Below are positions 7,793 to 37,210 of a DNA stretch of 64,000 nt, one piece after another; the first letter of the stretch is position 1, and every line of letters starts with the position of its first letter. The notes under the pieces are model-generated. The model was given only the letters and a program-made list of their open reading frames with translations. It was not told where the DNA came from and did not search any database. Location of the stretch: NCBI GenBank assembly GCA_019455065.1, contig JACFNC010000016.1, positions 1 through 64,000 of the forward strand, read 5' to 3'. The stretch is from Rhodospirillales bacterium (lineage in GTDB: Bacteria; Pseudomonadota; Alphaproteobacteria; Rhodospirillales; Magnetospirillaceae). The position numbers were made by a program, and so were the translations under genes.

Positions 7793-8221
7793 CTATTCGC
7801 GCACCACAAGAACCGAGCATTTCGCGTGGCGAACAACGCGCGCCGCGTTCGGGCCCAGCAGGTAGTCCCGCAATTCCGGCCGGTGCGCCGCCATGACGAT
7901 CAGGTCCACCTTCAGCCGCTCGGCGAAATCCAGGATCGAGTCATAGATTCGCCCGCCGCCGACGCAATGCTGTACGGCGACGTCTTCAGGCACATGGTCG
8001 CGGACGAAGTCGTGCAACCGCTTCGTCGTCTCTTCCTTCAGCTTGGTTTCGTAGTTGGCTGGGAAATACTGGCCGACCATGGATAGACCGTAATCCGGCA
8101 CCACGGTCAGGACGTGCAGCCGTGATCCGAAGGTCTTTGCCTGCGCCAACGCGATGGGCAGCGCGCGCCGCCATGAGCTGTCGTGTTCAAGGTCGACGGT
8201 CAGCAGGATATCCTTGAACAT
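7793..8221 (-). CDS. universal stress protein, UspA family
   Basis: Single-domain UspA protein of 142 residues with a Rossmann-like nucleotide-binding fold. It starts MFKDILLTVDLEHDS and has the C-terminal signature of ATP-binding Usp proteins, a G followed by A-rich residues and S-V-L-V-V (GPNAARVVRHAKCSVLVVR). A strong site GGAGGAAAT precedes the ATG, which is only 13 bases after the TRAP permease stop. Usp genes next to TRAP transporters are known: TeaD modulates the TeaABC ectoine transporter in Halomonas. A role in tuning this transporter is therefore a reasonable inference, not shown by the sequence. Confidence 0.92.
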   Translation of the reverse strand: MFKDILLTVDLEHDSSWRRALPIALAQAKTFGSRLHVLTVVPDYGLSMVGQYFPANYETKLKEETTKRLHDFVRDHVPEDVAVQHCVGGGRIYDSILDFAERLKVDLIVMAAHRPELRDYLLGPNAARVVRHAKCSVLVVRE

Positions 8222-8234
8222 TGCATTTCCTCCG

Positions 8235-10820
8235 TCACGCCGTTACCGGGGCGCCGCGTCGCCGTGACCATTGCAACAGGACGACGATCCCAAGCAGGAC
8301 ACCGGCGGGAATGAACACCAACTGCTTGGGTGGCTGCGGGTTGGGCACCCTCGCAAGAAGGATCTGGTCGTCGAGTTCCAAGCCGGCCTTTTCGGCTGCG
8401 CTTCCGAAGCTGGCCGCATCGACCAGCACCTTGCCGTCCTCGGTGTACAATTCCAATCCCGCCGCCTCCAGGCGCTCCGCGCCGGACCCGCCGTCGGGGA
8501 TGGTGATAAGGGTCGAGTATTCCCTTGGCCTGCCCACGGCGTCCTGGCCAAGGACGCGCAACCTGAGCTGGTCGCCGGGAGCCACGGCGGCCGCGGCATC
8601 CGAGATGTCGGCCGGCTCGAACTCCTGCCAGGGCGGGACCAGCCGGTCCATGAAAAAGCCGGGGCGAAGCAGGGCGAAGGTCACCGCCAGCAACATCACG
8701 GTCTCGTACCAGCGGCTGCGGGTCAGGAACCAGCCCTGGGATGCGGCGGCAAACACAAGCATTGCCACGGTCGCCACCACGAAAGTGACGCCCCCGGTCA
8801 GGAAATCGACGTTGATGAGCAGCAGGTCGGTGTTGAAGATGAACATGAAGGGCAGCAGCGCCGTGCGGATCGCATAGCCGAAACCGATCAAACCCGTTTT
8901 GATCGGGTCGGCGCCGGAGATCGCCGATGCCGCGAAGGCGGCGAGACCGACCGGCGGCGTCACGTCCGCCATCACCCCGAAGTAGAAGACGAACAAATGT
9001 GCCGCGATCAGCGGCACGAGCAGGCCGTACTGCGTGCCCACCTCCACCAGCACCGGCGCCATCAGGGTGGCAACGACGATGTAGTTGGCGGTGGTGGGAA
9101 GGCCCATGCCCAGGATCAGGCTGATCATCGCCGTGAAGATGAGCAGCAGCATCAGGTTGCCGGCCGAGATCAACTCGACCACGTCGGCCAGGACGGCCCC
9201 GATGCCGGTCAGGGTGACCGTGCCGACGATGATGCCTGCGGCGGCCGTGGCGATGCCGATCGAGATCATGTTGCGGGCGCCGGCGATCAGCCCCTGCACG
9301 AGTTCGTCGCCGCCGCGCAGCACCGCGGACGCCAGCCTGCCATCGCCCCGGAAGAAGGCGGTCAGCGGGCGCTGGGTGAGCAAAATGAAGATCATGAACG
9401 AAGCGGCCCAGAAGGCCGACAGCCCCGGAGAAAGCTGTTCGACCATCAGGGCCCACACCAGGACCACCACCGGCAACAGGAAGTGCAGGCCGCTCTGGGC
9501 TATGGGACCGGGGTCCGGCAGCGTCAGAAGCGGCGCGTTGGGATCATCAGGCTCGAGATCGGGAAAGCGCGAAGCATGCCAGACGAGCCCAAAGTAGATC
9601 GCCAGCAAAGCGACGCCGATCACCCATGACGCGTAGGCGCCGGCGGCGATCTTGACCCAACCCACCGCGTAATAAACCACGTTGGCCAGGATAACCAGGC
9701 TGGCGACGACGATGCCGGTGGACAGAAGACTGCGCTGCCACGTCCGCTCGTGCGCACGCGGCAATCCCTTGAGGCCAAGCTTCAACGCCTCAAGGTGCAC
9801 GATGTAGAGGAGCGAGATGTAAGAAATCACCGCCGGCAGGAAGGCATGCGTGATCACCTCGCTATAGGGTATGCCGACATATTCGACCATGAGGAAGGCG
9901 GCGGCGCCCATCACCGGCGGCATGATCTGGCCGTCGGTCGAAGCGGCCGTTTCCACCGCTCCGGCCTTTTCGGGCGGATAGCCGACACGCTTCATCAAGG
10001 GAATGGTGAAGGTGCCCGTGGTGACGACGTTGGCGATCGAGGAGCCCGAGATGATTCCCGTCATTCCCGACGACACCACCGCCGCCTTCGCCGGCCCGCC
10101 GCGAAGATGGCCGAGCAGCGAAAAAGCGAGCTTGATGAAGTAGTTGCCGGCCCCCGCCTTGTCAAGCATGGCGCCGAACAGGACGAACAGGAAGACGAAA
10201 CTGGTCGAGACGCCGAGCGCGATGCCGAACACGCCCAGGGTGGTCGTCCAGAAATGGTTGGCGGCCAGTGCCAGCGAGGCTCCCTTGTGCGCGATGACTT
10301 CCGGCATGTAGGGGCCGGCGAACACGTAGATCAGGCTGATGACGGCGATGATCATCAGCGGCGGTCCGACCGCGCGGCGCGTGGCTTCGAGCAGCGTCAG
10401 CACGCCGACCACCCCGACCACGATGTCGGCCGTCGTCGGGGCCGCGGGTCGTCCCGCGAGGTCGCGGTAGAACAGAAAGACATACGCCGCGCAGAACGAA
10501 GCCACCAGGGCCAAGACCCAGTCGCCGAGCGGTATGCGGTGGCGTGGCGAGCGACGGAACGCCGGATAGGCCGTGAATGCTAGGAATATCGCGAACGCCA
10601 AGTGGATGGCCCGCGCCTCGGTATCGTTGAACACCCCGAAGCGCAGCATGAACGGCAGCGGCGATGCGTACCAAAGTTGGAACAGCGACCACACCAAGGC
10701 GACGACGATGATCACCTTGCCGGACAGCCCGTAAGGTGAGCGCGCGCCGGTATCGACGGCCACCAGATCTTCGAGATCGGCGGTCCGCACCTTCCTCTCC
10801 GGAGAGTCGTTCGCTGCCAT
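8235..10820 (-). CDS. TRAP transporter fused permease, 4TM/12TM type
   Basis: Inner-membrane permease of a TAXI-type tripartite ATP-independent periplasmic transporter, in which the small (DctQ-like, 4TM) and large (DctM-like, 12TM) subunits are fused; 861 residues. Hydrophobic segments begin near residue 33 and run to about residue 700. The DctM-type segments MTGIISGSSIANVVTTGTFTIP and GLPTTANYIVVATLMAP are evident. The last ~150 residues form a soluble extension resembling the DUF3394 tail of such fusions. It lies 99 bases downstream of a TAXI binding protein, with a terminator hairpin between them. Substrate class is not readable from the permease; the neighbouring aminotransferase and BKACE suggest an amino acid or keto acid. 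Confidence 0.93.
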   Translation of the reverse strand: MAANDSPERKVRTADLEDLVAVDTGARSPYGLSGKVIIVVALVWSLFQLWYASPLPFMLRFGVFNDTEARAIHLAFAIFLAFTAYPAFRRSPRHRIPLGDWVLALVASFCAAYVFLFYRDLAGRPAAPTTADIVVGVVGVLTLLEATRRAVGPPLMIIAVISLIYVFAGPYMPEVIAHKGASLALAANHFWTTTLGVFGIALGVSTSFVFLFVLFGAMLDKAGAGNYFIKLAFSLLGHLRGGPAKAAVVSSGMTGIISGSSIANVVTTGTFTIPLMKRVGYPPEKAGAVETAASTDGQIMPPVMGAAAFLMVEYVGIPYSEVITHAFLPAVISYISLLYIVHLEALKLGLKGLPRAHERTWQRSLLSTGIVVASLVILANVVYYAVGWVKIAAGAYASWVIGVALLAIYFGLVWHASRFPDLEPDDPNAPLLTLPDPGPIAQSGLHFLLPVVVLVWALMVEQLSPGLSAFWAASFMIFILLTQRPLTAFFRGDGRLASAVLRGGDELVQGLIAGARNMISIGIATAAAGIIVGTVTLTGIGAVLADVVELISAGNLMLLLIFTAMISLILGMGLPTTANYIVVATLMAPVLVEVGTQYGLLVPLIAAHLFVFYFGVMADVTPPVGLAAFAASAISGADPIKTGLIGFGYAIRTALLPFMFIFNTDLLLINVDFLTGGVTFVVATVAMLVFAAASQGWFLTRSRWYETVMLLAVTFALLRPGFFMDRLVPPWQEFEPADISDAAAAVAPGDQLRLRVLGQDAVGRPREYSTLITIPDGGSGAERLEAAGLELYTEDGKVLVDAASFGSAAEKAGLELDDQILLARVPNPQPPKQLVFIPAGVLLGIVVLLQWSRRRGAPVTA

Positions 10821-10878
10821 CGGATCCCCCGATACCTTGCCCGTCGGCGCCGACCTTCTGGGCGCTTCAGAGGGCCAG

Positions 10879-10908
10879 AAAAAGGGGCGGCCAGTTATTG
10901 GCCGCCCC
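10879..10908 (-). terminator. terminator-like hairpin between TAXI binding protein and permease
   Basis: On the minus strand a perfect ten-base-pair stem (10908-10899 with 10893-10884) with a five-base loop is followed directly by five T residues, starting 12 bases after the stop of the upstream binding-protein gene. It has the full form of an intrinsic terminator. Lying inside a likely operon, it would lower permease expression relative to the binding protein. Confidence 0.8.
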
Positions 10909-10919
10909 TGGGGTCGGGA

Positions 10920-11891
10920 CTACATCCAGCCCCGTTCCTTGTAGTACTTGACCGCCCCGGAATGCAGCGGGGCCGACAGTCCGGCCTTGAGCATCTCCTT
11001 GGGGTCGAGTGCCGCGAACGCCGGATGCTGCTTCTTGAAGCGCTCGATGTTGTCGAAGACCGCCTTGGTGATGGAGTAGACCACGTCGTCCGGAACCTTG
11101 GCGGAGGACACGAACGTGGCGCGCACGCCGAACGTCTTGGTGGGCTGTTCGTTGCCGCGGTACATCCCGCCGGGAATTACGGCCTCCGAATAGTAGGGGT
11201 TCTCGGCGACGAGTTTGGCGATCACCGGGCCGCTGACGTCGACCAGCACGGACTCGCAGGCCGTGGTCGCCTCCTGGATGGATCCATTGGGATGTCCGAC
11301 CGTGTAGACGATCGCATCCACCTTGTTGTCGCACAGCGCCTGCGACTGCTCACGCGGCTCCAGTTCCGACGCCAAGGCGAAGTCGCTCATCTTCCACCCC
11401 TTGGCGGCCATCACGACCTCCATGGTCCCGCGCTGCCCGGATCCTGGGTTTCCCACGTTCACCCGTTTGCCCTTCAGGTCGTCGAACGTCTTGATGCCCG
11501 CATCCTTGCGCGCCACCACCGTGAACGGCTCGGCATGAACGCTGAACACGGCGCGGAGGTCTGGGTCGGCACCGGACTTCTCGAACTGACTGGTCCCCTT
11601 CATGGAATGGAACTGCCAGTCGGACTGGGCGACGCCCAACTCGATTTCGCCGCTGCGCAGCTTGGTGAGGTTGGCGATCGAGCCGCCACCGGCGGGCGCA
11701 TTGCAGCGCAAGCCGGTCTTCTCGGTATCTCGGTTGACCAGTCGGCAAATGTTGGTGGCCACGGCATAGTAGACCCCGGTTTCGCCGCCGGAGCCGATGG
11801 TAATGAAACGCTGTTGGGCTGAGGCGGGCGGGGCCGCCACGACCATCACGGCTGCGGCCGCGAGGGCGGCCAATCTGAGCTTTCCGGACAT
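10920..11891 (-). CDS. TAXI-family TRAP transporter solute-binding protein (first copy)
   Basis: Periplasmic receptor that hands a substrate to the fused TRAP permease. The 323-residue precursor has a signal peptide (MSGKLRLAALAAAAVMVVAAPPASA). The mature protein shows the TAXI hallmark ITIGSGGETGVYYAVATNICRLVNRD, then CNAPAGGGSIANL and LGVAQSDWQFHS. A glutamate/aspartate ABC-receptor-like fold is expected. A strong AGGAG site precedes the ATG. It is the nearer of two tandem TAXI genes, 84 bases after the other one, and is followed by a terminator and the permease. The ligand is unknown; TAXI proteins studied so far bind glutamate, alpha-ketoglutarate and similar carboxylates. Confidence 0.93.
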   Translation of the reverse strand: MSGKLRLAALAAAAVMVVAAPPASAQQRFITIGSGGETGVYYAVATNICRLVNRDTEKTGLRCNAPAGGGSIANLTKLRSGEIELGVAQSDWQFHSMKGTSQFEKSGADPDLRAVFSVHAEPFTVVARKDAGIKTFDDLKGKRVNVGNPGSGQRGTMEVVMAAKGWKMSDFALASELEPREQSQALCDNKVDAIVYTVGHPNGSIQEATTACESVLVDVSGPVIAKLVAENPYYSEAVIPGGMYRGNEQPTKTFGVRATFVSSAKVPDDVVYSITKAVFDNIERFKKQHPAFAALDPKEMLKAGLSAPLHSGAVKYYKERGWM

Positions 11892-11975
11892 CTCTTTCTC
11901 CTCCGTTGCTTATGAAAGTATCTGGTTGATCGAAAGAGCTTTTTCCAATCTCCTTTGCCGCACCCGAAGCGCGGA

Positions 11976-12950
11976 TCATTTCAGTAGTCCTGCCTCCCTG
12001 AAATATCTGGCCGCCCCCTCATGGAGAGGTGCGGCCAGTTCCTTCCCAATCATAGCCTGCCTTTCGAGAATCGCCAGAGGGGGATACAGGCTGTTGAATA
12101 TACTGATGTTGTCGAACACCACTTTCACGATTTCATAGGCCGTATCGGCCGGAAGGCTGGCGGTGGTTACCACCGTCGCCGCCATGCCGAAGCTCTTCCG
12201 TGCCGCCTCCAGTCCGGAATAGGCGCCGGCCGGCACGGTCACTGGAGTCAGATAGGGGTGTGAAGCCAGATACTGCTGGACCGCCTGACCTTCGACCTCG
12301 ACCAACCGGGCTTCGCAGCCATCGACGGCACGGGAAACCGTGCCGCTCGGATGGACCGCGGCGAAGATCGCCGCATCGATCTGGCCATCGCACAAGGCCT
12401 CCACCTGCTGCGCCGGATCCATCTCGAGCATCCCCTCGAGATCGTTGGCGCGCCACTTTAGGGCATCGATGAGGGCCTGGGCCATACTGCGTTGGAAAGT
12501 GTCCGCCGGTCCCACGGCGATGCGTTTGTTCTTCAGATCGGCGACTGTCTTGATCTTGCTGTCCGCACGCGCCAGCACCACCAGTGTTTCCGTATGCAGG
12601 GTGAACAGCGACCGCAGTTCAGGGAATGGACCGTCGTCCTTGAAAGGGCCGCTGCCTTCAAAGGCCTGCATGTGGCCCTTCGACTGAACGATCCCCAATT
12701 CCAGGGTGCCGTCGCGCAGCCCGCCGATGTTGGCCCCCGATCCCGGCGTCGGCGCCACGAGGCAGTGGAGACCGTGGCGAGCCCGGTCGCGATTGATTAG
12801 CCGGCACACCGCGCCCCCCACCGGGTAGTAGTAACCCGTTACCTCGCCCGTTCCCAAGGCGATGCGGGTAGTCTTGCCCGCCTCCTGCGCGGAGACCGGC
12901 CCGGTGAGCATCGCGGCCACCGCTCCGAGAACCGTCAGCATCCCCCTCAT
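11976..12950 (-). CDS. TAXI-family TRAP transporter solute-binding protein (second copy)
   Basis: Second periplasmic TAXI receptor, 324 residues, with a short signal peptide (MRGMLTVLGAVAAMLTGPVSA). The mature part has IALGTGEVTGYYYPVGGAVCRLINRDR, GSGANIGGLRDG and LGIVQSKGHMQAF, aligning block by block with the neighbouring copy but clearly divergent. The ATG at 12950 overlaps the BKACE stop by four bases (ATGA); a longer upstream reading frame runs over the BKACE gene and is rejected because the signal peptide begins at 12950. Two receptors with one permease suggest either two ligands or one receptor used for sensing. Confidence 0.92.
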   Translation of the reverse strand: MRGMLTVLGAVAAMLTGPVSAQEAGKTTRIALGTGEVTGYYYPVGGAVCRLINRDRARHGLHCLVAPTPGSGANIGGLRDGTLELGIVQSKGHMQAFEGSGPFKDDGPFPELRSLFTLHTETLVVLARADSKIKTVADLKNKRIAVGPADTFQRSMAQALIDALKWRANDLEGMLEMDPAQQVEALCDGQIDAAIFAAVHPSGTVSRAVDGCEARLVEVEGQAVQQYLASHPYLTPVTVPAGAYSGLEAARKSFGMAATVVTTASLPADTAYEIVKVVFDNISIFNSLYPPLAILERQAMIGKELAAPLHEGAARYFREAGLLK

Positions 12951-13780
12951 TGGGCTGCTCCGGCCAAAATCGCGCGGGCGGTGGCGCCATCGGCGGGAAC
13001 CCTGCCGACCAGCCCCACCCCCCTGGCCAATTGGGCCACGAGCGCCGCGTTGTCGGGGGCAAGCCGTCCGTCCGCGCAGTAAAGATTGTTCTCGAACCCG
13101 ACGCGCGCATGCCCCCCCAGCGCCGCCGTCGCCATCGCGCAGGCATTCTCGAGGTGCCCGAACGCGCAGGTCATCCATGTCTCGTTGTCCTCACGGTCAC
13201 ACAGGAATGGCAGCAAGTCTTCGGGGCTTGACTGCTGGGTCGCGGAATATCGGCCGAGAACGAACAACGACGTGCCGCCCGGGATCACGCCTCGCGTCTT
13301 CAAGTCGCGATAACGCTGCCATTCGGACCGAGAATAGAGAATGAACTGCATCGACACCTTTTCCCGCCACATTTCTTCGAAAAAATCACCGGCCGCCCGC
13401 TCGCCCGCAGGGTCCGGAACGATCTCGCGCAAAGCCAGCGAGACCGCCTCTGGCCTCACGGCCCGGATCGTCGCCATCTGATGGGCCGCCGCATAGCGCC
13501 CGGCCGCCTCCGACGTGATCTGGATGACCATGTCCTCGGCCACTTCCTGGCGCACGGCGGCGATCGTTTGCCGGTAGGCGTCGGCGTCGAGCAGATGCCG
13601 GCCTTGAGCGTCCCGGACGTGCAGATGGATCATGCTGGCGCCGGCCTCACGGCAACTGGCCGCCGTCCTGGCCAGTTCCTCTGCCGTAATCGGCAGGTTG
13701 GGGTGATCGGCCTTCGTCCGGCGCGCACCGTTGGGGGCCACGGCGATGATGATGGGCCTGAGCTTGGCCGCGCCCGTCAT
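12947..13780 (-). CDS. BKACE-family beta-keto acid cleavage enzyme (DUF849)
   Basis: Zinc-dependent enzyme of the family whose founder, 3-keto-5-aminohexanoate cleavage enzyme (Kce), condenses a beta-keto acid with acetyl-CoA to give acetoacetate and a new acyl-CoA. The 277-residue product has the metal motif His52-Leu-His54 in MIHLHVRD and a glutamate (Glu230) in GFENNLY that matches the third zinc ligand of Kce. It begins PIIIAVAPNGARRTKADHPNLP, as in the family. It overlaps the aminotransferase upstream and the TAXI gene downstream by four bases each, so the three are translationally coupled. The specific keto acid cannot be told; the aminotransferase next door suggests it is made from an amino acid. 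Confidence 0.9.
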   Translation of the reverse strand: MTGAAKLRPIIIAVAPNGARRTKADHPNLPITAEELARTAASCREAGASMIHLHVRDAQGRHLLDADAYRQTIAAVRQEVAEDMVIQITSEAAGRYAAAHQMATIRAVRPEAVSLALREIVPDPAGERAAGDFFEEMWREKVSMQFILYSRSEWQRYRDLKTRGVIPGGTSLFVLGRYSATQQSSPEDLLPFLCDREDNETWMTCAFGHLENACAMATAALGGHARVGFENNLYCADGRLAPDNAALVAQLARGVGLVGRVPADGATARAILAGAAQ

Positions 13781-15111
13781 CCGCCGATCTCGGCCATTAC
13801 GCTGTCGAGGGTGGTGCCCAGCTTGTCGACGATCTCGCCGACGTGATGCGGTTCGATGATGAAGGGCGGCGCCAGCAACACGTGGTCGCCCCGCCGTCCG
13901 TCGATCGTTCCGCCCATCGGGTAGCACATCAACCCGTTCTCCATCCCACGCTTCTTGACGCGGGCGGCGACCCGAAGCGCAGGGTCGAACGGCTCCTTGC
14001 TCGGCCGGTCCGCGACCAGTTCTATCCCGATGAACAACCCCCGCCCCCGGATGTCGCCGACATGGGCGCCGCCGCCCAGCCGGGCGTCGAGCGCGGCGCG
14101 CAACTCGGCGCCGCGCTCGCGCACGTTGGCCAGCAGCCCACGCTCCCGGATCGCCCTCTGGACCGCAAGCCCGGCCGCGCATGCCGTGGCATGCCCCATA
14201 TAGGTGTGGCCGTGCTGAAAGAAGCCCGAACCCTTCGCGAAGGCGTCATGGATGCGGCCGCTGACCATGACGGCGCCGATCGGCTGGTATCCCGCGCCCA
14301 ACCCTTTTGCGATGGTCAGAAGGTCTGGCGCGATGCCTTCCTGCTCGCAGGCGAACAAGGTTCCCGTGCGGCCCATTCCGCACATCACCTCGTCGAGTAT
14401 CAGGAGCACCCCGTAGCGGTCGCAGATTTCGCGAATGCGCCTGAAATACCCCGGCACCGGAGGCACCGCCCCGGCCGTGGCGCCGACGACCGTCTCGGCA
14501 ATGAAAGCGGCGACAGTCTCGGGCCCGAGCCTCCGAATTTCCGTTTCGAGTTCGTCCGCCACCCGCAATCCATAAGCCTCTGCCGTCTCGTCTGGCCGCT
14601 GCCCGCGATACGCGTAGCAGGGAGAGATGTGCGGCACGTCGAGAAGCAGCGGCTGAAACTGCGCCCGCCGCCACTCGTTGCCCCCCGCCGAGAGGGCGCC
14701 GATGGTGTTGCCGTGGTAACTCTGCCGCCGGGCGATGATCCGCGACCGGCTCGCTTGACCGATTTCGAGGAAGTATTGACGTGCCATCTTGATGGCCGCC
14801 TCCACCGCCTCGGAACCGCCGGAAACGAAATAGACCTTCTCCAACCCGGCCGGCGCCGAGGCCACCAACTCCGCCGCCAGTTCCTCCATCGGCCGGTTGG
14901 TGAAGAATGACGTATGCGCAAAGGCGATCGCGTCGATCTGTTGCGTGATGGCCTTCCGCACGCCGGCGTCGCTGTGGCCGAGGCATGACACGGCGGCGCC
15001 ACCCGAGGCGTCGAGATACCGCCGGCCCTCCTGGTCGAGAATGAAAACGCCGTCGCCGCGCACGGCCACGGGAAGAGTCGGCCCGATCTGGCGGTGAAAG
15101 ACGCTGGTCAT
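13777..15111 (-). CDS. class III aminotransferase, PLP dependent
   Basis: Fold-type I aminotransferase of the omega-amino acid/acetylornithine group, 444 residues, close to the normal length. Visible features are the GGSEAVEAAIKMARQY cofactor-phosphate segment near residue 98, SYHGNTIGA near 131, LILDEVMCGMGRTG with Asp240 pairing to the pyridine nitrogen, and the Schiff-base lysine Lys269 in LLTIAKGLGAGYQPIGAVM. The ATG at 15111 gives the usual family N-terminus and has a GGAG nine bases upstream. It is the first gene of the TRAP/BKACE run and overlaps BKACE by four bases. It probably converts an amino acid, perhaps a beta-amino acid, to the keto acid used by BKACE. Assignment to a precise substrate is not possible. 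Confidence 0.92.
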   Translation of the reverse strand: MTSVFHRQIGPTLPVAVRGDGVFILDQEGRRYLDASGGAAVSCLGHSDAGVRKAITQQIDAIAFAHTSFFTNRPMEELAAELVASAPAGLEKVYFVSGGSEAVEAAIKMARQYFLEIGQASRSRIIARRQSYHGNTIGALSAGGNEWRRAQFQPLLLDVPHISPCYAYRGQRPDETAEAYGLRVADELETEIRRLGPETVAAFIAETVVGATAGAVPPVPGYFRRIREICDRYGVLLILDEVMCGMGRTGTLFACEQEGIAPDLLTIAKGLGAGYQPIGAVMVSGRIHDAFAKGSGFFQHGHTYMGHATACAAGLAVQRAIRERGLLANVRERGAELRAALDARLGGGAHVGDIRGRGLFIGIELVADRPSKEPFDPALRVAARVKKRGMENGLMCYPMGGTIDGRRGDHVLLAPPFIIEPHHVGEIVDKLGTTLDSVMAEIGG

Positions 15112-27838: not shown

Positions 27839-30151
27839 TCATCGCGTCAGCCCGGCGAACACGGCGGGCAGCCGCTCGGGCAGGCGCGCGACCTGATCGA
27901 GGACGGTGTAGCGGTTGGCGCCGAAGATGCGCCCCACATAGTCGTCGGCACGGGGGTCGAGGGTCAGGCAATAGGGCGTCACGCCCACGGCCTGCAACTC
28001 CTCCACCGCCTTGCGCGTGTCGTGGCGCAGGTATTGCGGATCGCGCACGTCGATGTCGGCCGGCTCGCCGTCGCTGACCAGCAGCAGCAGCTTGCGCCGC
28101 TGCGGCTGGCGGCGCAGGAAGCCGCCGGCATGGCGCAGCGCGGCCCCCATGCGGGTCGACAGGCCGCCTGCCATGCCGGCCAGCCGCGCCTTGGCGCCGT
28201 CGTCCCAGGGCTGGGCGAAATCCTTGAAACGGAAGTACTGCACGTCGTGGCGGCCGTCCGAGGCGAAGCCGTGGACGGCGAAGGGGTCGCCGATGCCGTC
28301 CACCGCCCACGCCAGCAGCGTCGTCGCCTCGCGCGCCAGTTCGAGCACCGGCCGGTCGGCGCCGGGCGGCGTCTCGTTGGTGCTTTCCGACAGGTCGAGC
28401 AGCAGCAGGACCGCGATGTCGCGCACCTGCGGGCGGTGACGGATGTTGATGCGGGGGTCGGGCTGGCGGCCCAGGCGGACGTCGGTCATGGCGCGCACGG
28501 CCGCGTCGATGTCGATGTCGTCGCCGTCCTCCTGACGGCGCAACCGCTGCACGCCGCGCGGTTGCAGGGCGTCGACCAGACGGCGCAGGCGCTGCGCCAC
28601 CGGCCGCTGTTCCACCAGGATAGCCTCGATTCGGGCCGGGTCGCCGCGCCGCGGCCGCTTCTCCAGCACCGTCGCCCAGTCGGGGCGGTGCAGTTGCACC
28701 TGATAGTCCCATTCCGGGTAGTGGTGGGGCTGCGGCGCCGGCTCCTTGCCTTCCAGCCGGTTCAGGCTCATCCCCGCCGGGTCGCCGTCGCGGAAGAACT
28801 CGCTTTCCAGCGTCCAGATTTCCTGGGCGTCGTCGCCCGCCAGCTCGGTATCGACCTCGTTGACCATCTCCATGACGTTGACCGTGCGTCGCACCTGCCG
28901 CGCAGCCTCGCCGTAGACCTCCTCCTTCGACCAGTCGATCTCCTCGTATTCCCAGACGAAGCGGTTGTCATCGCGATAAGGTGGGGCGAAACCCTCCAAC
29001 GCCCGCAGGCCGGGAACACCGGCCTCGGCTACGAGCCGGTTGTAGGCCGAAATGCCGACATCCCAGCTCAGGCGGTTGTCGAAGGGGGCGGCGGCGAAGC
29101 GGACCTCGAACTCGCGGGCCGCGTCGTCGGCCGCGGCGCCGTCCATCAACGCGATGCCCAGCCGTTGGATCGCCTCCACCGCCGGATGGGCGTCTTGCGG
29201 CAGGCGGATAAAGGGGCGCCACAAGGCCCGCAATCCGGGAAAGTCGCGAATGGCGAGGCGTTCGATGCGCCCGTCCTCGACGGCCCCGATGCACGCCATC
29301 TGCACCGGATTGAGCTGCTCGGCCGAGATCGGGGCGCGGGTGTAGACCATGTGGGCGGCGGCATGTGCCGCGGCGGCGCGGTACAGGTCGCGCCCCGGTA
29401 AGCCGTTCCAGTCGTCGAAGGCGTCGGGCAGGTGGATGACGCCGTTCTCGATATAGGGCTGGTAGCCCTGGCGGGTTTCGAAATCGCCGGATGTCGGGCG
29501 CAAAAAGAAGTCCCGCCCCCACAGGGCCCGCAGATACAGGTTAAGGCGGCGCTGGCTGTCGACGAACAGGGTGCCGCGCCGCTCCTTCTGCAGAACCGCC
29601 AGGCTGTCGGCGGACTGCAGGCCGAAATAGCCCTCCAGCGCCTTCAGGTCGCGGCCATGCGCCTGGGCGCCCCACATCGCCCAGCGGCGCAGGCCACCCA
29701 GCGTGAGCTTGCCGAACAGATCGTCGAGGCGCCCCAGCATCGGGCGCAAACCGCGCGGCGCCTTGGCCGACAACTGGTGGAGGAGACCGAGCCAGGCACG
29801 CAGCAGGGCAGCGTCCCCAAGCCTTCGGGCCGCGGTCGGCAGGGTGGCGAGGATGAGGGCGATGACCTCGCCGCTGACCATCGAGGCGAGTTTCATCGCC
29901 TCGGTCACCGCGTCGCCGATCGCCTCGTCGCCGACCTCCTTGGCAACCGCCGGCATCGCCTCCAGATAGGCGACGACGATGTTGCTTCCGCGCCCCAGGT
30001 CGCACAGCGCCTTGCCGCCATCCAGATAGGCCTGCAGCCCGGCCGGCCCCATGACCCGCGCCGCCTCGGCGAAACCCGCCTCCAGCGTCTCGGCCAGCCG
30101 GGGATCGGCCTGGGCGAGGCAGTCGCGGTAGGGATCAAGCGAGAGGGTCAT
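27839..30151 (-). CDS. cbbO: RuBisCO activation protein CbbO, von Willebrand factor A domain
   Basis: Adaptor of the CbbQO RuBisCO activase, in which the CbbQ AAA+ hexamer uses CbbO to remove inhibitory sugar phosphates from the active site. The 770-residue product is of normal length. A mostly helical N-terminal part is followed by an acidic linker and a C-terminal VWA domain with the MIDAS motif DLSES (about residues 586-590) in AVLLLLDLSESTN. The ATG at 30151 gives the start MTLSLDPYRDCLAQ; an upstream in-frame start would lie inside the repeat element and is rejected. It lies downstream of cbbQ, with repeat-bearing gaps on both sides. Confidence 0.93.
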   Translation of the reverse strand: MTLSLDPYRDCLAQADPRLAETLEAGFAEAARVMGPAGLQAYLDGGKALCDLGRGSNIVVAYLEAMPAVAKEVGDEAIGDAVTEAMKLASMVSGEVIALILATLPTAARRLGDAALLRAWLGLLHQLSAKAPRGLRPMLGRLDDLFGKLTLGGLRRWAMWGAQAHGRDLKALEGYFGLQSADSLAVLQKERRGTLFVDSQRRLNLYLRALWGRDFFLRPTSGDFETRQGYQPYIENGVIHLPDAFDDWNGLPGRDLYRAAAAHAAAHMVYTRAPISAEQLNPVQMACIGAVEDGRIERLAIRDFPGLRALWRPFIRLPQDAHPAVEAIQRLGIALMDGAAADDAAREFEVRFAAAPFDNRLSWDVGISAYNRLVAEAGVPGLRALEGFAPPYRDDNRFVWEYEEIDWSKEEVYGEAARQVRRTVNVMEMVNEVDTELAGDDAQEIWTLESEFFRDGDPAGMSLNRLEGKEPAPQPHHYPEWDYQVQLHRPDWATVLEKRPRRGDPARIEAILVEQRPVAQRLRRLVDALQPRGVQRLRRQEDGDDIDIDAAVRAMTDVRLGRQPDPRINIRHRPQVRDIAVLLLLDLSESTNETPPGADRPVLELAREATTLLAWAVDGIGDPFAVHGFASDGRHDVQYFRFKDFAQPWDDGAKARLAGMAGGLSTRMGAALRHAGGFLRRQPQRRKLLLLVSDGEPADIDVRDPQYLRHDTRKAVEELQAVGVTPYCLTLDPRADDYVGRIFGANRYTVLDQVARLPERLPAVFAGLTR

Positions 30152-30176
30152 GGAGACCCCCTCCCGCCTACGCGGC

Positions 30177-30290
30177 GTCCCGTCGCCCCCGCGAAAGCGG
30201 GGGCCCATAAACCTCGGTCGTCGATGGATTCCCGCTTGCGCGGGAATGACGGGAAAAAGTCATCCCGCTCCTCTCCCGCAAGCGGGAGAA
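30177..30290. repeat. REP-like hairpin cluster, copy B
   Basis: Three stems follow each other between cbbQ and cbbO: GCCCCCGC-GAAA-GCGGGGGC (30185-30204), ATTCCCGC-TTGC-GCGGGAAT (30228-30247) and TCTCCCGC-AA-GCGGGAGA (30272-30289). The second is the same stem as in copy A, in reverse order relative to its neighbour. Confidence 0.75.
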
Positions 30291-30301
30291 GGAGAACCTG
30301 A

Positions 30302-31102
30302 TCAGAAATACGTCGCGACCGCGGCATCGAGGGTATCGCGCATGTCGGCGTCGTCGGTGATCGGCCGCACCAGGGTCATGCGGCAGGCGGCCACCGGGTC
30401 GATGCCCTTGGCGATCAGGCTGCCGGCGTAGACCAACAGACGGGTCGAGAGCCCCTCGTCCAGCCCGTGCCCCTTCAGGTTGCGGGTACGATGCGCGATC
30501 TGCACCAGCTTGTCCGCCACCTCGCGGCCCACCCCGGCCTCGTGGGCGACGATCTCGGCCTCGACGGCGGCCGGCGGGTAGTCGAAGTCCAGCGCGCCGA
30601 AGCGCTGCTTGGTCGACTGCTTCAGATCCTTCATCAGGTTCTGGTAGCCGGGGTTGTAGGAGATGACGAGGAGGAAATCCGGGTGCGCCTTGACCAACTC
30701 GCCCTTCTTGTCGAGGGGCAGGCTGCGCCTGTGGTCGGTCAGCGGGTGGATGACCACGGTGGTGTCCTGGCGCGCCTCGACTACCTCGTCGAGATAGCAG
30801 ATGGCGCCGATGCGGGCCGCCGTGGTCAGCGGCCCGTCCTGCCAGCGGGTGCCGTTGGCGTCGAGCAGATAGCGCCCCACCAGGTCCGAAGCGGTCATGT
30901 CCTCGTTGCAGGCCACCGTCACCAGAGGCCGTCCGAGGCGCCACGCCATATACTCCACGAAGCGCGACTTGCCGGTCCCGGTCGGCCCCTTGAGCATGAC
31001 CGGCAGCCGCGCCGCATAGGCCGCCTCGAACAGCCGCACCTCGTCAGCCAGGGGGCGGTAATAGGGTTCGCTACCGATCAGATACTGCGTCGCGTCGAGC
31101 AT
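30302..31102 (-). CDS. cbbQ: RuBisCO activation AAA+ ATPase CbbQ
   Basis: MoxR-type AAA+ ATPase of 266 residues that powers RuBisCO reactivation together with CbbO. It shows Walker A GPTGTGKS (39-46), the CbbQ/NirQ segment [17 protein letters not shown], Walker B ending Asp105-Glu106, and the sensor region [11 protein letters not shown] with an arginine-containing [12 protein letters not shown]. It follows cbbS after 56 bases, the order typical of form IA operons without carboxysomes. Its close relative NirQ/NorQ serves nitric oxide reductase, but the neighbours make CbbQ certain. Confidence 0.96.
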
Positions 31103-31158
31103 GGATCACTCGCCATCCCAGTTCGTCATTGCGCTCCCCGCAACGCCCCCTCATCCAC

Positions 31159-31515
31159 CTACTTCGCCGGGCCGCGGAACACCACCATCGACGCGCCCTG
31201 CGACTGCTTGTAGTTGTCGTAGCCGATCAGGCGGACGTGATTGTTCGGATGGGCGCGGTGGCACGCCTCGATTTCGGCCAAGATCCTGTCGATGTCCGTC
31301 TCGCCGAACATCGGCAGCTTCCACATGTACCAGTAGTGGCTGAAGGCGTTCTCCGGCTCGATATGCTCGATCCCCGGGTTCCAGCCCTTGCTGACGATGT
31401 AGGCCACCTGGGCGCGGATCTGCTCGGCGGTCAGTTCCGGCAGGTAGGAGAAGGTCTCGAACTTGCGGCTGGCGGGATCGCTCAGGCTCGACTTGTAGTC
31501 TTCAACGGCACTCAT
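31159..31515 (-). CDS. cbbS: RuBisCO small subunit, form I
   Basis: Small subunit of form I ribulose bisphosphate carboxylase, 118 residues. It has [12 protein letters not shown], the [14 protein letters not shown] strand and [14 protein letters not shown], all hallmarks of the green-like small subunit. The C-terminus [20 protein letters not shown] is that of the proteobacterial IA type. An AAGGA site precedes the ATG. It lies 109 bases after cbbL, the gap being filled largely by a hairpin repeat. Confidence 0.97.
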
Positions 31516-31554
31516 CGGTTTTCCTTTCGTAGAGGCGTGGCTCTTTGCTCTCCC

Positions 31555-31613
31555 GTCACCCCCGGGCTCGACCCGGGGGTCATGGATTGCCGGGTCAAGC
31601 CCGGAAATGACGG
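31555..31613. repeat. REP-like paired hairpins, copy C
   Basis: ACCCCCGGG-CTCGA-CCCGGGGGT (31558-31580) and CCGGG-TCAAG-CCCGG (31590-31604) lie between GTCA and TGAC ends, so the whole unit is itself an inverted repeat. The stem sequence differs from copies A and B. It sits between cbbL and cbbS. Confidence 0.75.
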
Positions 31614-31624
31614 CGAGGGGTACC

Positions 31625-33043
31625 CTAGCGGTGCGCCACGTCCAGCTTGTCGACGACGTCGAACTCGAATTTGATTTCCTTCCAGGTCTCCATCGCCGTC
31701 TTCAGCTCGGGGCTGTGCTTGGCGGCGGCGGTCAGGATGTCCTTGCCTTCGCGTTCGACGTCGCGGCCCTCGTTGCGGGCCTGGGTGCAAGCCTCGAGCG
31801 CCACGCGGTTGGCGGCGGCGCCGGCGGCGTTGCCCCAGGGATGGCCCAGCGTGCCGCCGCCGAACTGGAACACGGCGTCGTCGCCGAAGATCGCCACCAG
31901 GGCCGGCATGTGCCAGACGTGGATGCCGCCCGAGGCGACCGGGAGCAGGCCGGGCATCGAGCCCCAGTCCTGATCGAAGAAGATGCCGCGCGAGCGGTCC
32001 TCCTTGACGTAGCGCTCGCGCATCAGGCTGATCCAGCCCAGCGTCGACTGGCGGTCGCCCTCCAGCTTGCCGACCACGGTGCCGGAATGCATGTGGTCGC
32101 CGCCCGACAGCCGCAGGCACTTCGTCAGGACCCGGAAGTGGATGCCGTGATACGGATTGCGGTCGACCACGGCGTGCATGGCGCGGTGGATGTGCAGCAG
32201 CATGCCGTTGTTGCGGCACCAGTTGGCCAAACCGGTATTGGCGCAGAATCCGGCAGTCAAAAAGTCGTGCATGATGATCGGCATGCCGAGTTCCTTGGCG
32301 AACTCGGCGCGCTTGTACATCTCTTCCGGCGTCGGCGCGGTGACGTTCAGGTAGTGGCCCTTGCGCTCGCCGGTCTCGGCCTCGGCCTTGCGGATGGCCT
32401 CCGCGACGAAGGAGAAGCGGTCGCGCCAGCGCATGAAGGGTTGCGAGTTGACGTTCTCGTCGTCCTTGGTGAAGTCGAGGCCGCCCCGCAGGCACTCGTA
32501 CACGGCGCGGCCGTAGTTCTTGGCCGACAGGCCGAGCTTCGGCTTGATGGTGCAGCCGAGCATGGCGCGGCCGTACTTGTTCATCTTGTCGCGTTCGACC
32601 TGGATGCCATGGGGAGGCCCGCCGCAGGTCATCACATAGGCGATGGGAAAGCGCACGTCCTCGAGACGCAGGCTGCGGATGGCCTTGAAGCCGAACACGT
32701 TGCCGACCAGCGAGGTCAGCACGTTGACCACCGACCCCTCTTCGAACAAGTCGATCGGATAGGCGATGAAGGCGTAGAAGGCGGTGTCGTCGCCCGGCAC
32801 GTCCTCGATCCGGTAGGCGCGGCCCTTGTAGTATTCGAGGTCGGTCAGAAGGTCGGTCCAGACGGTGGTCCAGGTACCGGTGGAGGACTCCGCGGCAACG
32901 GCCGCGGCGGCCTCCTCGCGGGGCACGCCGGCCTGCGGCACGACCTTGAAGCAAGCCAGGAGATCGGTGTCCTTGACCTGGTAGTGCGGTTCCCAATAGG
33001 TCTCGCGGTATTCCTTTACGCCCGCGCGATACGTCTTAGCCAT
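31625..33043 (-). CDS. cbbL: RuBisCO large subunit, form IA
   Basis: Large subunit of ribulose 1,5-bisphosphate carboxylase/oxygenase, 472 residues. The catalytic lysine is Lys167 in [10 protein letters not shown], and the carbamylated lysine is Lys193 with metal ligands Asp195 and Glu196 in [11 protein letters not shown]. Loop 6 is [12 protein letters not shown], with the lysine in place. The N-terminus [17 protein letters not shown] and the companion cbbQ/cbbO place it in the non-carboxysomal form IA group, rather than the red-like IC form common in alphaproteobacteria. A GGAG eight bases upstream supports the ATG. Confidence 0.98.
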
Positions 33044-33146
33044 TGCGTGACTCCACTCGGCTTTTTCGCCATGGTTGTATTGAGGCGGGCCGTCCTTCGG
33101 AGCGGCGGGCGCATCGGCCAGCCGCGCCGAGACACGGCCGTGTCCG

Positions 33147-34208
33147 TCAGTTCACTTTCGGATCGAGCGACCCCTTTGCGTAGCGGTCGGCCATGCCCTC
33201 CAAGGACACCACCTTGATTTTCGCCGCCATTCCGGCCGACCCGAAGGCCTCGTAGCGATCCTTGCAGATCTGGCTCATGCCCTTGGTCGCCTCCTTGAGG
33301 AACTTGCGGGGATCGAAGTTCTTTCTGTCCTCGGCCAGATGCTTGCGGACGGCGCCGGTCGAGGCCATGCGCAGGTCGGTGTCGATGTTGACCTTGCGCA
33401 CGCCGTGCTTGATGGCCTCGACGATCTCGGAGACGGGCACGCCGTAGGTCTGCCCCATGTCGCCGCCGTAATCGTTGATCATCGCCAGCCAGTCCTCGGG
33501 CACCGAGGACGAACCGTGCATGACCAGATGGGTGCTGGGGATGCGCGCATGAATTTCCTTCACGCGGTCGATCCTCAGCACGTCGCCGGTCGGCTTCTTG
33601 GTGAACTTGTAGGCGCCGTGGCTGGTGCCGATGGCGATGGCCAGGGCGTCGACCTTGGTCGCGGCCACGAATTCGGCGGCCTCGTTGGGATCGGTCAGAA
33701 GCTGGCTGTGGTCCAGGGTGCCCTCGGCGCCGATCCCGTCCTCCTCGCCCGCCTGGCCGGTTTCCAGCGACCCGAGGCAGCCCAGTTCGCCTTCCACGGA
33801 GACGCCGCAGGCATGGGACATGTCGACCACGGCGCGGGTGACCGAGACGTTGTAGTCGTAGGAGGCGGGTGTCTTGCCGTCCTCCCTGAGCGAGCCGTCC
33901 ATCATCACCGACGAGAAGCCGGACTGGATGGCGCGCACGCACACCGCCGGCGAGGTGCCGTGATCCTGATGCATGCACACCGGAATGTGTGGATAGGCCT
34001 CGAGCGCAGCCAGGATGAGGTGCCGCAGGAACGGCTCGCCGGCGTATTTGCGAGCACCCGCCGAACCCTGCAGGATCACCGGGCTGTCGACCGCGTCGGC
34101 CGCCTCCATGATCGCCTTCACCTGCTCCATGTTGTTCACGTTGAACGCGGGCAGGCCGTAACCGTTTTCCGCGGCGTGGTCGAGAAGCTGACGCAACGAT
34201 ACCAGCAT
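33147..34208 (-). CDS. cbbA: class II fructose-bisphosphate aldolase, Calvin cycle subtype
   Basis: Zinc-dependent aldolase acting on fructose 1,6- and sedoheptulose 1,7-bisphosphate, 353 residues. Metal and phosphate motifs are [16 protein letters not shown] with [17 protein letters not shown] and [11 protein letters not shown], followed by [11 protein letters not shown]. The tail [17 protein letters not shown] is shared by the CbbA/Fba subgroup. It sits 16 bases after transketolase and 103 bases before cbbL; the gap contains a 14-base palindrome (33131-33144) with no T tract. Confidence 0.95.
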
Positions 34209-34224
34209 TGAATCTTCCCCCTTT

Positions 34225-36231
34225 CTATTTCAGCCGCGCCACGGCGGCGTCGACCACGGCGTCGGCAGTGATGCCGAAATGCTCGTAGAGCTTCTCCGCC
34301 GGCGCGGAAGCCCCGAAGCCGGTCATGCCGATAACGGCCCCGTCGAGGCCCACGTAACGCTCCCAGCCGAAGGTGCCGAGCGCCTCGACGGCCACCCGCA
34401 CCGTGCCCTCGCCGAGCACCTTCGCGCGGTAATCCGCCGGCTGGCGGTCGAACAGTTCCCAGCAGGGCATCGACACCACGGCCGCGGCCACGCCCTTGGC
34501 CTTGAGCTTGTCGCGCGCCGCCATGGCCAACGACACCTCGGATCCGGTCGCCAGGATGGTCACCTGCCGCTTGCCGTCGGCCTCGGCCATCACGTAGGCG
34601 CCGCGTGCCGAGAGGTTGTCGTCGGTGTGCTCGGTGCGCAGCGTCGGCAGGTTCTGGCGCGACAGGGCCAGCGCGCTCGGCCCGCCCTCGTTGGCCACCG
34701 CCAGCGCCCAGCACTCCGCCGTCTCCACCGCGTCACAGGGGCGGAAGGTCAGAACGTTGGGCATGGCGCGCAAGCTGGCCACCGTCTCGATCGGCTGGTG
34801 GGTCGGACCGTCCTCGCCGAGGCCGATCGAGTCGTGGGTAAGCACGTAGATCACCCGCAAGCCCATCAGGGCCGACATGCGCAGGCCGGGGCGCAGATAG
34901 TCGGCGAACACCAGGAAGGTGCCGCCGTAGGGAATGAAGCCGCCGTGCAGGGCCATGCCGTTCATCACCGCGGCCATGCCATGCTCGCGCACTCCATAAT
35001 GGATGTAGCGGCCGGCGAAATCGGTCGGTGTGATGGACTTGGTAACCTTGGTGTGGGTCAGGTTGGAATGGGTGAGGTCGGCGGAACCGCCGATCATCTC
35101 CGGGATCACCGGAGTAAGCACCTCCAAGGCCTCTTGCGACGCCTTGCGGGTCGCCCAGGAAGGCTTGTCCGCACTGCACTTCTTCTTGAAGTCGTTGACC
35201 GCCTTCTCCCAGCCGGCCGGCAGCCGGCCTTGGGTGGTGCGATCATACTCGGCCCTGACGACGGACGGCGTCGCCGCGTAGCGCGCTTCCCAGGCGGTGC
35301 GCTCCGCGGCGCCCCGGCCGCCCGCGGCGCGCCACGCCGCCAGCACGTTGTCGGGAATCTCAAAGGCGGGATAGGGCCAGCCGAGCCCCTCACGCATGCC
35401 GGCCAGATCCTCGGCACCGAGCGGAGCCCCATGCGTCTTCTCCGATCCGGCCTTGGTCGGCGAGCCGAAACCGATGACGGTGCGGCAGGCGATCAGCGAG
35501 GGCCGGTCGGTGGTGCGGGCATGCGCAACAGCCGCGGCCACGGCCTCCGGGTCGTGACCGTCGACGCGGCAGACGTCCCAGTTGCTGGCCTCGAAGCGCT
35601 TCAGCTGGTCGTCGGAAACGCTCAGCGACGTGTCGCCGTCGATGCAGATGTGGTTGTCGTCCCACAGCACGATCAGCTTGCCCAGCCGCCAGTGCCCGGC
35701 CATCGAGACCGCCTCCTGGCTGATGCCTTCCATCAGGCAGCCGTCGCCCGCGATGACGTAGGTGTAGTGGTCCACCACGTCCTTGCCGAACCGCGCCTGC
35801 AGCATCTTCTCGGCGAGCGCGAAGCCGACGGCGTTGGCGATGCCCTGGCCCAGCGGCCCGGTGGTGGTCTCGGCGCCGCTGATGTGGCCGTATTCCGGAT
35901 GGCCGGCGGTGCGTGCCCCCAACTGGCGAAAATTCTTGATCTGCTCGATATCGACGTCGGGATAGCCGGTCAGGTAAAGCAGGCTGTAAAGCAGCATCGA
36001 GCCATGGCCGGCCGATAGGACGAAGCGGTCGCGGTCGGCCCAGCGCGGCTGCGCGGCGTCGAACTTGAGGAACCGGGTAAAGAGGACGGTGGCCACGTCG
36101 GCCATGCCCATCGGCATGCCGGGATGACCCGACTTCGCCTTTTCCACCGCGTCGGCGGAGAGGAAGCGGATGGCGTTGGCCATGTCCCGGTGACTGGCCT
36201 GGGTAAGTGCCTTCGTGGGCTGGGCTGTCAT
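34225..36231 (-). CDS. cbbT: transketolase
   Basis: Thiamine diphosphate enzyme moving two-carbon units in the regenerative phase of the Calvin cycle and in the pentose phosphate pathway, 668 residues. It has the [10 protein letters not shown] start region, [12 protein letters not shown], the TPP motif beginning GDGCLMEG, the catalytic-domain [18 protein letters not shown] and [17 protein letters not shown]. The ATG at 36231 has AGGGGA upstream; a TTG one codon earlier is ignored. It lies 19 bases after the prk gene. Confidence 0.96.
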
Positions 36232-36250
36232 CAATCGTCCCCTAAGTTCG

Positions 36251-37192
36251 TCAGACCGCGTAGTGGCCGAGCGCGGCCTTCACCAAATGGTAAGTGATCA
36301 GCAGCTGCGACAGGGCCAGCGGGTGGCTGAGCCTGGTTTGACGCTGATCGTCGATGTATTCGCCGAGATTGGAGCGCAGATGCCCGGCCTCGGGAATGAG
36401 GCTCCATAGCAGTTCCTCGACCGCCTTTGCACGCTTGTCTTCGATGTCGCCCGAAATCTCGAGGACATCGACGGGCTTGCCGTCGACATCGCGGGAGAGA
36501 TCGAGCCGGAAGCCGCTCTTGGCACCGGCGTCCAGAACGGGGCTGAGGTCGGGATGCGGCAAGGTGGGGCGAAGCGTATGGCGCACGTTGAGACGCGCCC
36601 CCTTCTCCTCGACGTTGTCGTGGGGCGGGTAGAACCGCACCACCATGTCGGCGAAGGTCCGCTGGGGCTGGATGAAATTGACGCTGTCGTATTTCCGCTT
36701 CTCCAGCGACTTCAGCACCTCTTCCGGCATGTAGCCGCGCTTTCCGCAATCGCGCTGGACCTTCCACTTCACGCGCAGGCTTTCGTCCGGCTCCAGATAG
36801 ACCTTGACGTCGTAGCAATCGCGCATCGCCCGCGTCGAATAGCCAAGGAGGCCTTCGAGAATGATGTATTCGCGCGGTTCCACGTATTCCGGCCGGTCCA
36901 GGGTGCCGCCGTTGTGGTTGTACACGGGCTTGAGGATGGGTTCGCCGGCGCGCAGGCATCGGATGTGCTGCTCGAGGATGTCGATGTAGTTGCCGCGCGG
37001 GTCGAGCGCCGAAATGCCGTTCTCTGCGCGCTCGACGCGGCTGTACTTGTGATAGTCGTCGGTGCAGATGCTGACAACCCGGTCGGGCCCCAGGATTTTG
37101 GCGATACCGGCGGTGAGCGTTGTCTTGCCGGCCGCCGAGTCCCCGACGATGCCGAGGATGATGGGACGGGAGATGCGACGGTTCATGGGCAT
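36251..37192 (-). CDS. cbbP: phosphoribulokinase
   Basis: Phosphorylates ribulose 5-phosphate to the RuBisCO substrate, the committed step of the Calvin cycle. The 313-residue protein is of the proteobacterial class I type, normally octameric and regulated by NADH and AMP in studied examples. It has the P-loop GDSAAGKT (17-24), [26 protein letters not shown] and [16 protein letters not shown] precedes the ATG by seven bases. It lies between fbp and tkt, with gaps of 18 and 19 bases. Confidence 0.96.
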
Positions 37193-37210
37193 GTCCGGTT
37201 CCTCGGGTCG

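Follow-up and report, generated by a model that had tools for sequence, protein, structure and literature searches.

A proteobacterial gene unit that joins an aminotransferase, a TAXI-TRAP importer and a Kce-fold protein with replaced active-site residues

In a 64,000-nucleotide stretch of a Rhodospirillales contig (JACFNC010000016.1, positions 1 to 64,000, here called the window), six genes that all lie on the minus strand within 7793-15111 encode a class III aminotransferase (AT), a PF05853/DUF849 protein (BK), two TAXI-type receptors (TAXI2 and TAXI1), a fused TRAP permease and a universal stress protein (UspA). A unit of AT, importer and BK is spread across many proteobacteria, and the active site of its BK component differs from that of the beta-keto acid cleavage enzymes (BKACEs) in such a way that its chemistry is probably not textbook beta-keto acid cleavage. 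Our preferred reading is that the unit serves uptake and catabolism of a glutamate-type amino acid, with AT making a keto acid on which BK would act by a route that is independent of E143 and D231, two residues of the BKACE Kce; for this reading we see about equal grounds for belief and for doubt. The same six genes had been predicted by an earlier sequence-only reading, and both their coordinates and their families were confirmed here.

BK (12947..13780, 277 amino acids) matches PF05853 with 230 bits (cut-off 24.8). Its predicted structure (pLDDT 95.6) comes closest to Kce (2y7e; Z 34.2, 2.3 Å over 261 residues, 33% identity), whose H46, H48 and E230 we take to be metal ligands; these are present in the window protein as H52, H54 and E230, and R226 is present as well. 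At two further positions, I147 replaces E143 of Kce and N231 replaces D231. Both belong to the residues described as crucial in Kce, i.e. H46, H48, E143, R226 and D231, with S82, T106 and E230 being important (PMC5741869; this and all other papers are cited from excerpts). The replacements extend through the entire clade: in 39/39 members chosen by whole-protein similarity and in 128/128 clade rows, residue 143 is Ile and residue 231 is Asn (Kce numbering), with H46, H48 and E230 all kept, and twelve further rows, which go down to 36% identity, all have Asn at 231 together with Ile, once Leu, at 143. By comparison, all 26 other rows (25 distinct, Kce included), taken from the best Pfam scorers, retain E143 and D231. 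Within the sample aligned, D231N was seen in the BK clade only; other low-scoring PF05853 members (L197-L199, L201, L204, L205) have an altered E143 next to a retained D231.

Since a confident model is closest to Kce and these residues are replaced, BK is a protein of the Kce fold whose active site has been rewired. Some features of the sample define how far these counts reach. The 128 clade rows comprise 120 distinct sequences, with the window protein entered twice (once one residue shorter) and three pairs of rows from the same loci (L121/L040, L137/L046, L188/L032), and L195 among the twelve further rows is the same gene as L070. Eighty named BK loci were chosen by patterns, one of which contains GFEN, so that N231 in these loci is not independent evidence. 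Wrong-frame or fragmentary sequences (L212, L109, L111) and a partial one (L206) were left out of the residue comparison, and seven loci (L057, L059, L142, L156, L174, L180, L184) were left out since the gene caller found no BK there.

The sequence-only reading had assigned to BK the splitting of beta-keto acids with acetyl-CoA, and this part of it did not hold up, because no aligned member of the clade retains E143 or D231, so that an acetyl-CoA-dependent BKACE label is unwarranted. A true cleavage enzyme, which would use acetyl-CoA to turn the AT product into acetoacetate plus an acyl-CoA, would agree with the shared Kce fold, with the retained H46, H48, E230 and R226 and with Y145, which is kept in 36 of the 39 similarity-picked members, and most labelled partners of BK belong to families that we take to be makers of keto acids. 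BK falls far under the matched BKACE equivalogs, however, the best of these in NCBIfam being that of Kce itself (NF052387), where BK reaches 142.9 bits with a cut-off of 382. Published DUF849 members also include some whose chemistry is not BKACE cleavage, and whole groups without BKACE activity; for one of these, G6, PMC4922564 (section 22) gives ‘not BKACE, presenting decarboxylation activity’. Together with the replaced residues, this makes acetyl-CoA-dependent cleavage by BK unlikely. The window's genome encodes two more PF05853 proteins, on contigs C4 and C32 (364 and 315 bits to the Pfam model), and the C4 copy has the canonical residues.

AT (13777..15111, 444 amino acids) is a class III pyridoxal phosphate aminotransferase of the PRK07483 family (NF005685, 780 bits, cut-off 485; PF00202, 318 bits), for which we found no characterized member in this analysis, the nearest solved structures scoring about 305 bits. 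In a sample of 385 genomes of the class, 55 have a BK relative (E ≤ 1e-40), 92 have AT (E ≤ 1e-150) and 85 have a TAXI1-type receptor (E ≤ 1e-90). AT and BK co-occur in 46 genomes where 13.1 would be expected (Fisher p 7.6e-25, uncorrected for genome relatedness) and are neighbours (less than 2.5 kb apart) in 40, with the order reversed in five of these. With co-occurrence so far above expectation and adjacency in 40 genomes, the arrangement is not due to chance, in line with the earlier proposal that the two genes belong together. In the window, as had also been noted, AT and BK (13777..13780) as well as BK and TAXI2 (12947..12950) each share the four bases ATGA, and among same-strand pairs with AT before BK the overlap is exactly four bases in 29/61 and one base in 9/61, a tally based on gene starts from our own gene caller and with a few loci present twice. 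TAXI1 has no such overlap and starts 84 bases past TAXI2.

The gene order of the window recurs elsewhere, as the sequence-only reading had suggested looking for. The nearest relative of the window BK (63% identity) is found in Telmatospirillum sp. J64-1, where the order apt, RpiR, AT, BK, two TAXI, TRAP and UspA is the same, with an apt gene product 85% identical to that of the window; no RpiR gene stands at the corresponding position in the window. An apt cluster accompanies 10/41 loci and a cytochrome c cluster likewise 10/41, which would be compatible with AT and BK being neighbours merely by shared ancestry of the locus, between apt on one side and cytochrome c on the other, and having no common pathway. 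AT and BK are adjacent also on plasmids, however, where neither apt nor cytochrome c is annotated in the vicinity (in an incomplete gene table), their order is reversed in the five genomes mentioned, and 38/61 pairs overlap by one or four bases; purely inherited neighbourhood is thus very improbable.

The AT and TAXI-TRAP genes also occur together in the absence of BK. AT and a TAXI gene lie within 6 kb of each other in 38 genomes, of which 25 have BK beside AT, 12 have no BK match and one has BK elsewhere. The gene caller found AT in 15 of 20 regions with AT and no BK (L219, L222, L224, L225 and L232 were left out since it reported none), and 7 of these 15 show the order AT, TAXI, TRAP, followed in five of the seven by UspA. 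Because of these BK-free arrangements, BK looks like an addition, i.e. an accessory to AT plus TAXI-TRAP.

What this importer carries can be approached via its receptors. TAXI1 (10920..11891; TIGR02122, 339 bits, cut-off 84) aligns with the solved receptor 8S4J at 381 bits (E 3e-113), whereas TAXI2 (11976..12950; TIGR02122, 251 bits, same cut-off) is more divergent with 264 bits. 8S4J is the glutamate-specific VcGluP (PMC12344293), the ligand contacts of which include Y45, S75, Q93 and E125, with large losses of affinity upon mutation of Y45 or Q93 (PMC11574862). All four residues are retained in both TAXI1 and TAXI2, and for TAXI1 a VcGluP-like, glutamate-type site is predicted. Other AT loci point the same way: GlnHPQ genes stand beside AT or one gene from it in P. 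pantotrophus, Rhizobium NXC14, two Pantoea and Phytobacter (GlnH of L078 scores 338 bits, cut-off 303), and gltS lies near AT in E. coli pBH100. A TAXI-TRAP system for L-glutamate is also known from C. sphaeroides (PMC12632250; see below). Because TAXI1 is kin to VcGluP with the contacts kept, and GlnHPQ occurs at several AT loci, the imported solute is probably glutamate-like, which agrees with the earlier proposal of an amino acid.

The genes that follow AT at other loci give hints at what its product may be. Among 18 annotated AT loci, six have a clade BK (beside AT or next but one), one has a canonical PF05853 protein, seven have a CMD-type gene directly after AT and four have neither. The canonical case is a plasmid of Sulfitobacter sp. 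SK012 from marine sediment (L258), where an AT 54.6% identical to that of the window is followed by a PF05853 protein that retains E143 and D231. While this would suit acetyl-CoA-dependent cleavage, it seems to favour a beta-keto acid as AT product just as much as an acetyl-CoA-cleaving BK. The L258 cluster is larger and also includes a CoA transferase, SMP-30 and sulfatases. CMD assignment is firm for three rhizobial proteins only (PF02627, 34.7-39.3 bits, cut-off 23). In the pairs compared, enterobacterial CMD-type proteins are 84-96% alike mutually and 21-30% to the rhizobial ones; the CMD-type proteins of L078 and L079 had no match in NCBIfam. BK loci and CMD-type loci have homologous genes in common, namely GlnH (52%) and a C45 hydrolase (42-48%). 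This suggests that the product of AT may be accepted by BK, by a canonical BKACE and by a CMD-type protein alike. A beta-keto acid would fit all three, and decarboxylation would fit BK and CMD. The earlier idea that AT delivers a beta-keto acid is plausible, with the L258 arrangement and a second partnership of BK (see below) speaking for it.

One of the CMD-type loci stands on the conjugative IncF plasmid pBH100-1 of E. coli (L077), where an RpiR-AT-CMD-type block is located among tet(B), aph(3')-Ia and IS elements, with gltS nearby; here, a block for amino acid catabolism is carried beside resistance genes.

In the reading that we prefer, TAXI-TRAP would import a glutamate-like amino acid, as kinship to VcGluP and the pocket residues indicate, and the PRK07483 aminotransferase would strip off its amino group to yield a keto acid, as its family and conserved linkage suggest. 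BK, a predicted DUF849-fold TIM barrel with its metal ligands retained, would then act on this keto acid with the help of a metal, the likeliest reaction being decarboxylation or some other C-C step that needs no CoA.

Beta-keto acids lose CO2 spontaneously. If the solute were beta-glutamate (3-aminoglutarate), AT would convert it to 3-oxoglutarate and BK would decarboxylate this to acetoacetate, which could be activated by acetoacetyl-CoA synthetases, for which the genome has two matches (961 and 820 bits, cut-off 520.9); in beta-proteobacteria, BK would be supplied from 3-hydroxyglutarate by way of a 3-hydroxyacid dehydrogenase. Since CO2 is also lost spontaneously, a locus could do without BK or have a CMD-type protein in its place. 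The route strings together glutamate-type transporters, a presumed transaminase of beta-amino acids, a DUF849 group that decarboxylates and the acetoacetyl-CoA synthetases; every link in it is an inference, and we regard it as unlikely in this specific form. Beta-glutamate reaches 730 mM in Nitrosopumilus maritimus and is scarcer in the surface ocean than in deeper water (PMC8269262), it is an osmolyte of methanogens (PMC1224877), and KEGG holds one reaction for it (PMC12502400). Were the route real, it would provide genes for removing a compound that is abundant in N. maritimus. Neither a catabolic route for beta-glutamate nor a published unit of the kind described here was found in the open-access collection searched, most subscription papers being outside this search.

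Several observations weigh against our preferred reading. At the cut-off used, AT is missing in 9 of the 55 BK genomes, and six more carry AT in a non-adjacent position; likewise, 28/114 clade loci have no labelled partner within two genes of BK. Another DUF849 group, G7, was inactive on every substrate tested (PMC4922564, section 22), and the BK clade may be G6, G7 or neither. The AT of L258, a member of the wider family, stands beside a canonical BKACE. Of the four enterobacterial CMD-type proteins, one scores 20 bits (cut-off 23) and three have no Pfam match, and in S. meliloti (L072) two CMD-domain genes belong to other subfamilies, begin 310 bases beyond AT and are read in the opposite direction. 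(The paper found on this S. meliloti region deals with the next operon, SMb20278-20285; PMC3596328.) Other AT loci have unassigned ATP-binding cassette (ABC) systems, amino acid ABC systems or DctP-type TRAP systems, so that a glutamate-type transporter at AT loci is a tendency. Finally, when 70 AT/BK-linked and 20 unlinked TAXI receptors were compared at 13 mapped pocket positions, the commonest letter was identical at 12/13.

With linked and unlinked pockets so alike, beta-glutamate and L-glutamate are not separable, and the ligand may be plain L-glutamate. The assignment of a substrate from TAXI pocket residues was dropped, as the two sets of receptors gave no useful difference. The unit could then be an ordinary L-glutamate uptake operon, in which glutamate would donate the amino group in the AT reaction, and what AT makes would undergo an unrelated, metal-dependent conversion by BK. 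Besides the pockets, the VcGluP-like TAXI1 is in favour of this, as is the TAXI-TRAP system of C. sphaeroides, the deletion of which abolished sodium-dependent growth on L-glutamate (PMC12632250). By itself, however, such an operon leaves unexplained why AT is followed by a DUF849 protein here and by a CMD-type protein elsewhere, and why there is a second, altered receptor, TAXI2. We consider it a possible, if clearly less probable, alternative to coupled uptake and catabolism, but a better one than the specific beta-glutamate route.

BK also has partners other than AT. Within two genes of BK at 114 clade loci (three of which were fetched twice), AT was found 69 times, a 3-hydroxyacyl-CoA-dehydrogenase-like protein 14 times, a BhcC-like aldolase twice and a D-amino acid dehydrogenase once. 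The 3-hydroxyacyl-CoA-dehydrogenase-like protein and clade BK form a second, AT-free partnership, and the dehydrogenase-like gene is followed by BK, often with a TctC-type receptor, in L132, L134, L141, L152, L154, L161, L262 and others. In L056 and L061, a BhcC-like gene of the D-hydroxyaspartate aldolase type takes AT's place directly before BK (467 bits in L056, cut-off 690). L127, L151, L159 and L193 carry a nitrile hydratase alpha-chain cluster, of which Pfam identified one member, in divergent orientation to clade BK; in L151, one gene lies in between.

In the databases, plasmid records that name clade proteins call them ‘3-keto-5-aminohexanoate cleavage protein’, which is probably a wrong name because the active site is rewired. 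At least 558 pattern-matched stretches encode a BK relative (with two patterns, by which a gene may count twice, and with residues checked in the 80 loci mentioned above). A rewired active site in a widespread proteobacterial clade is thus probably going under an incorrect annotation.

Downstream of the receptors, the fused TRAP permease (8235..10820; TIGR02123, 692 bits; PF06808; PF11874) has a C-terminal DUF3394 domain and is followed after 13 bases by uspA (7793..8221; PF00582, 95 bits). The 99-base gap between TAXI1 and the permease contains a terminator-like hairpin with a T tail (10909-10883, minus strand), which is suggestive only, given that the hairpin scan yielded 6 terminator-like sites with 5.5 expected in shuffled sequence. 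Further away, open reading frames at 27839-38191 may be a gene cluster of the Calvin cycle (RuBisCO, transketolase, phosphoribulokinase, LysR regulator).

BK shares with Kce the TIM-barrel fold, H46, H48, E230 and R226 and differs from it not only by Ile (once Leu) for E143 and Asn for D231, but also by Gln or His for E141, Thr (once Ser) for S82, Glu for G84, His for P56, Phe for I207 and, in all rows but one, Cys for A205; Glu 84, His 56 and Phe 207 are constant in the clade. In having a chemistry other than BKACE cleavage, BK may join other members of its family, i.e. groups G6 and G7, the cis-epoxysuccinate hydrolase (5zmu/5zmy), ObcA and BsfD. The cis-epoxysuccinate hydrolase and ObcA, for which this role is taken from structure titles, are structural neighbours of the BK model, with a large sequence distance between BK and the former (23-24% identity). 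Compared with VcGluP, TAXI1 has S40G, D157Q and M201T, and TAXI2 retains Y45, S75, Q93, H123 and E125 and has the changes G156F and G203V in a pocket that is of glutamate type elsewhere. Positions 156 and 203 also vary in the receptors of L115 (the Telmatospirillum locus), L171, L187, L033 and L052. At the level of the permease, finally, VcGluQM has a periplasmic extension at its C-terminus (PMC11574862), of which the C-terminal DUF3394 domain of the window protein may be the counterpart.

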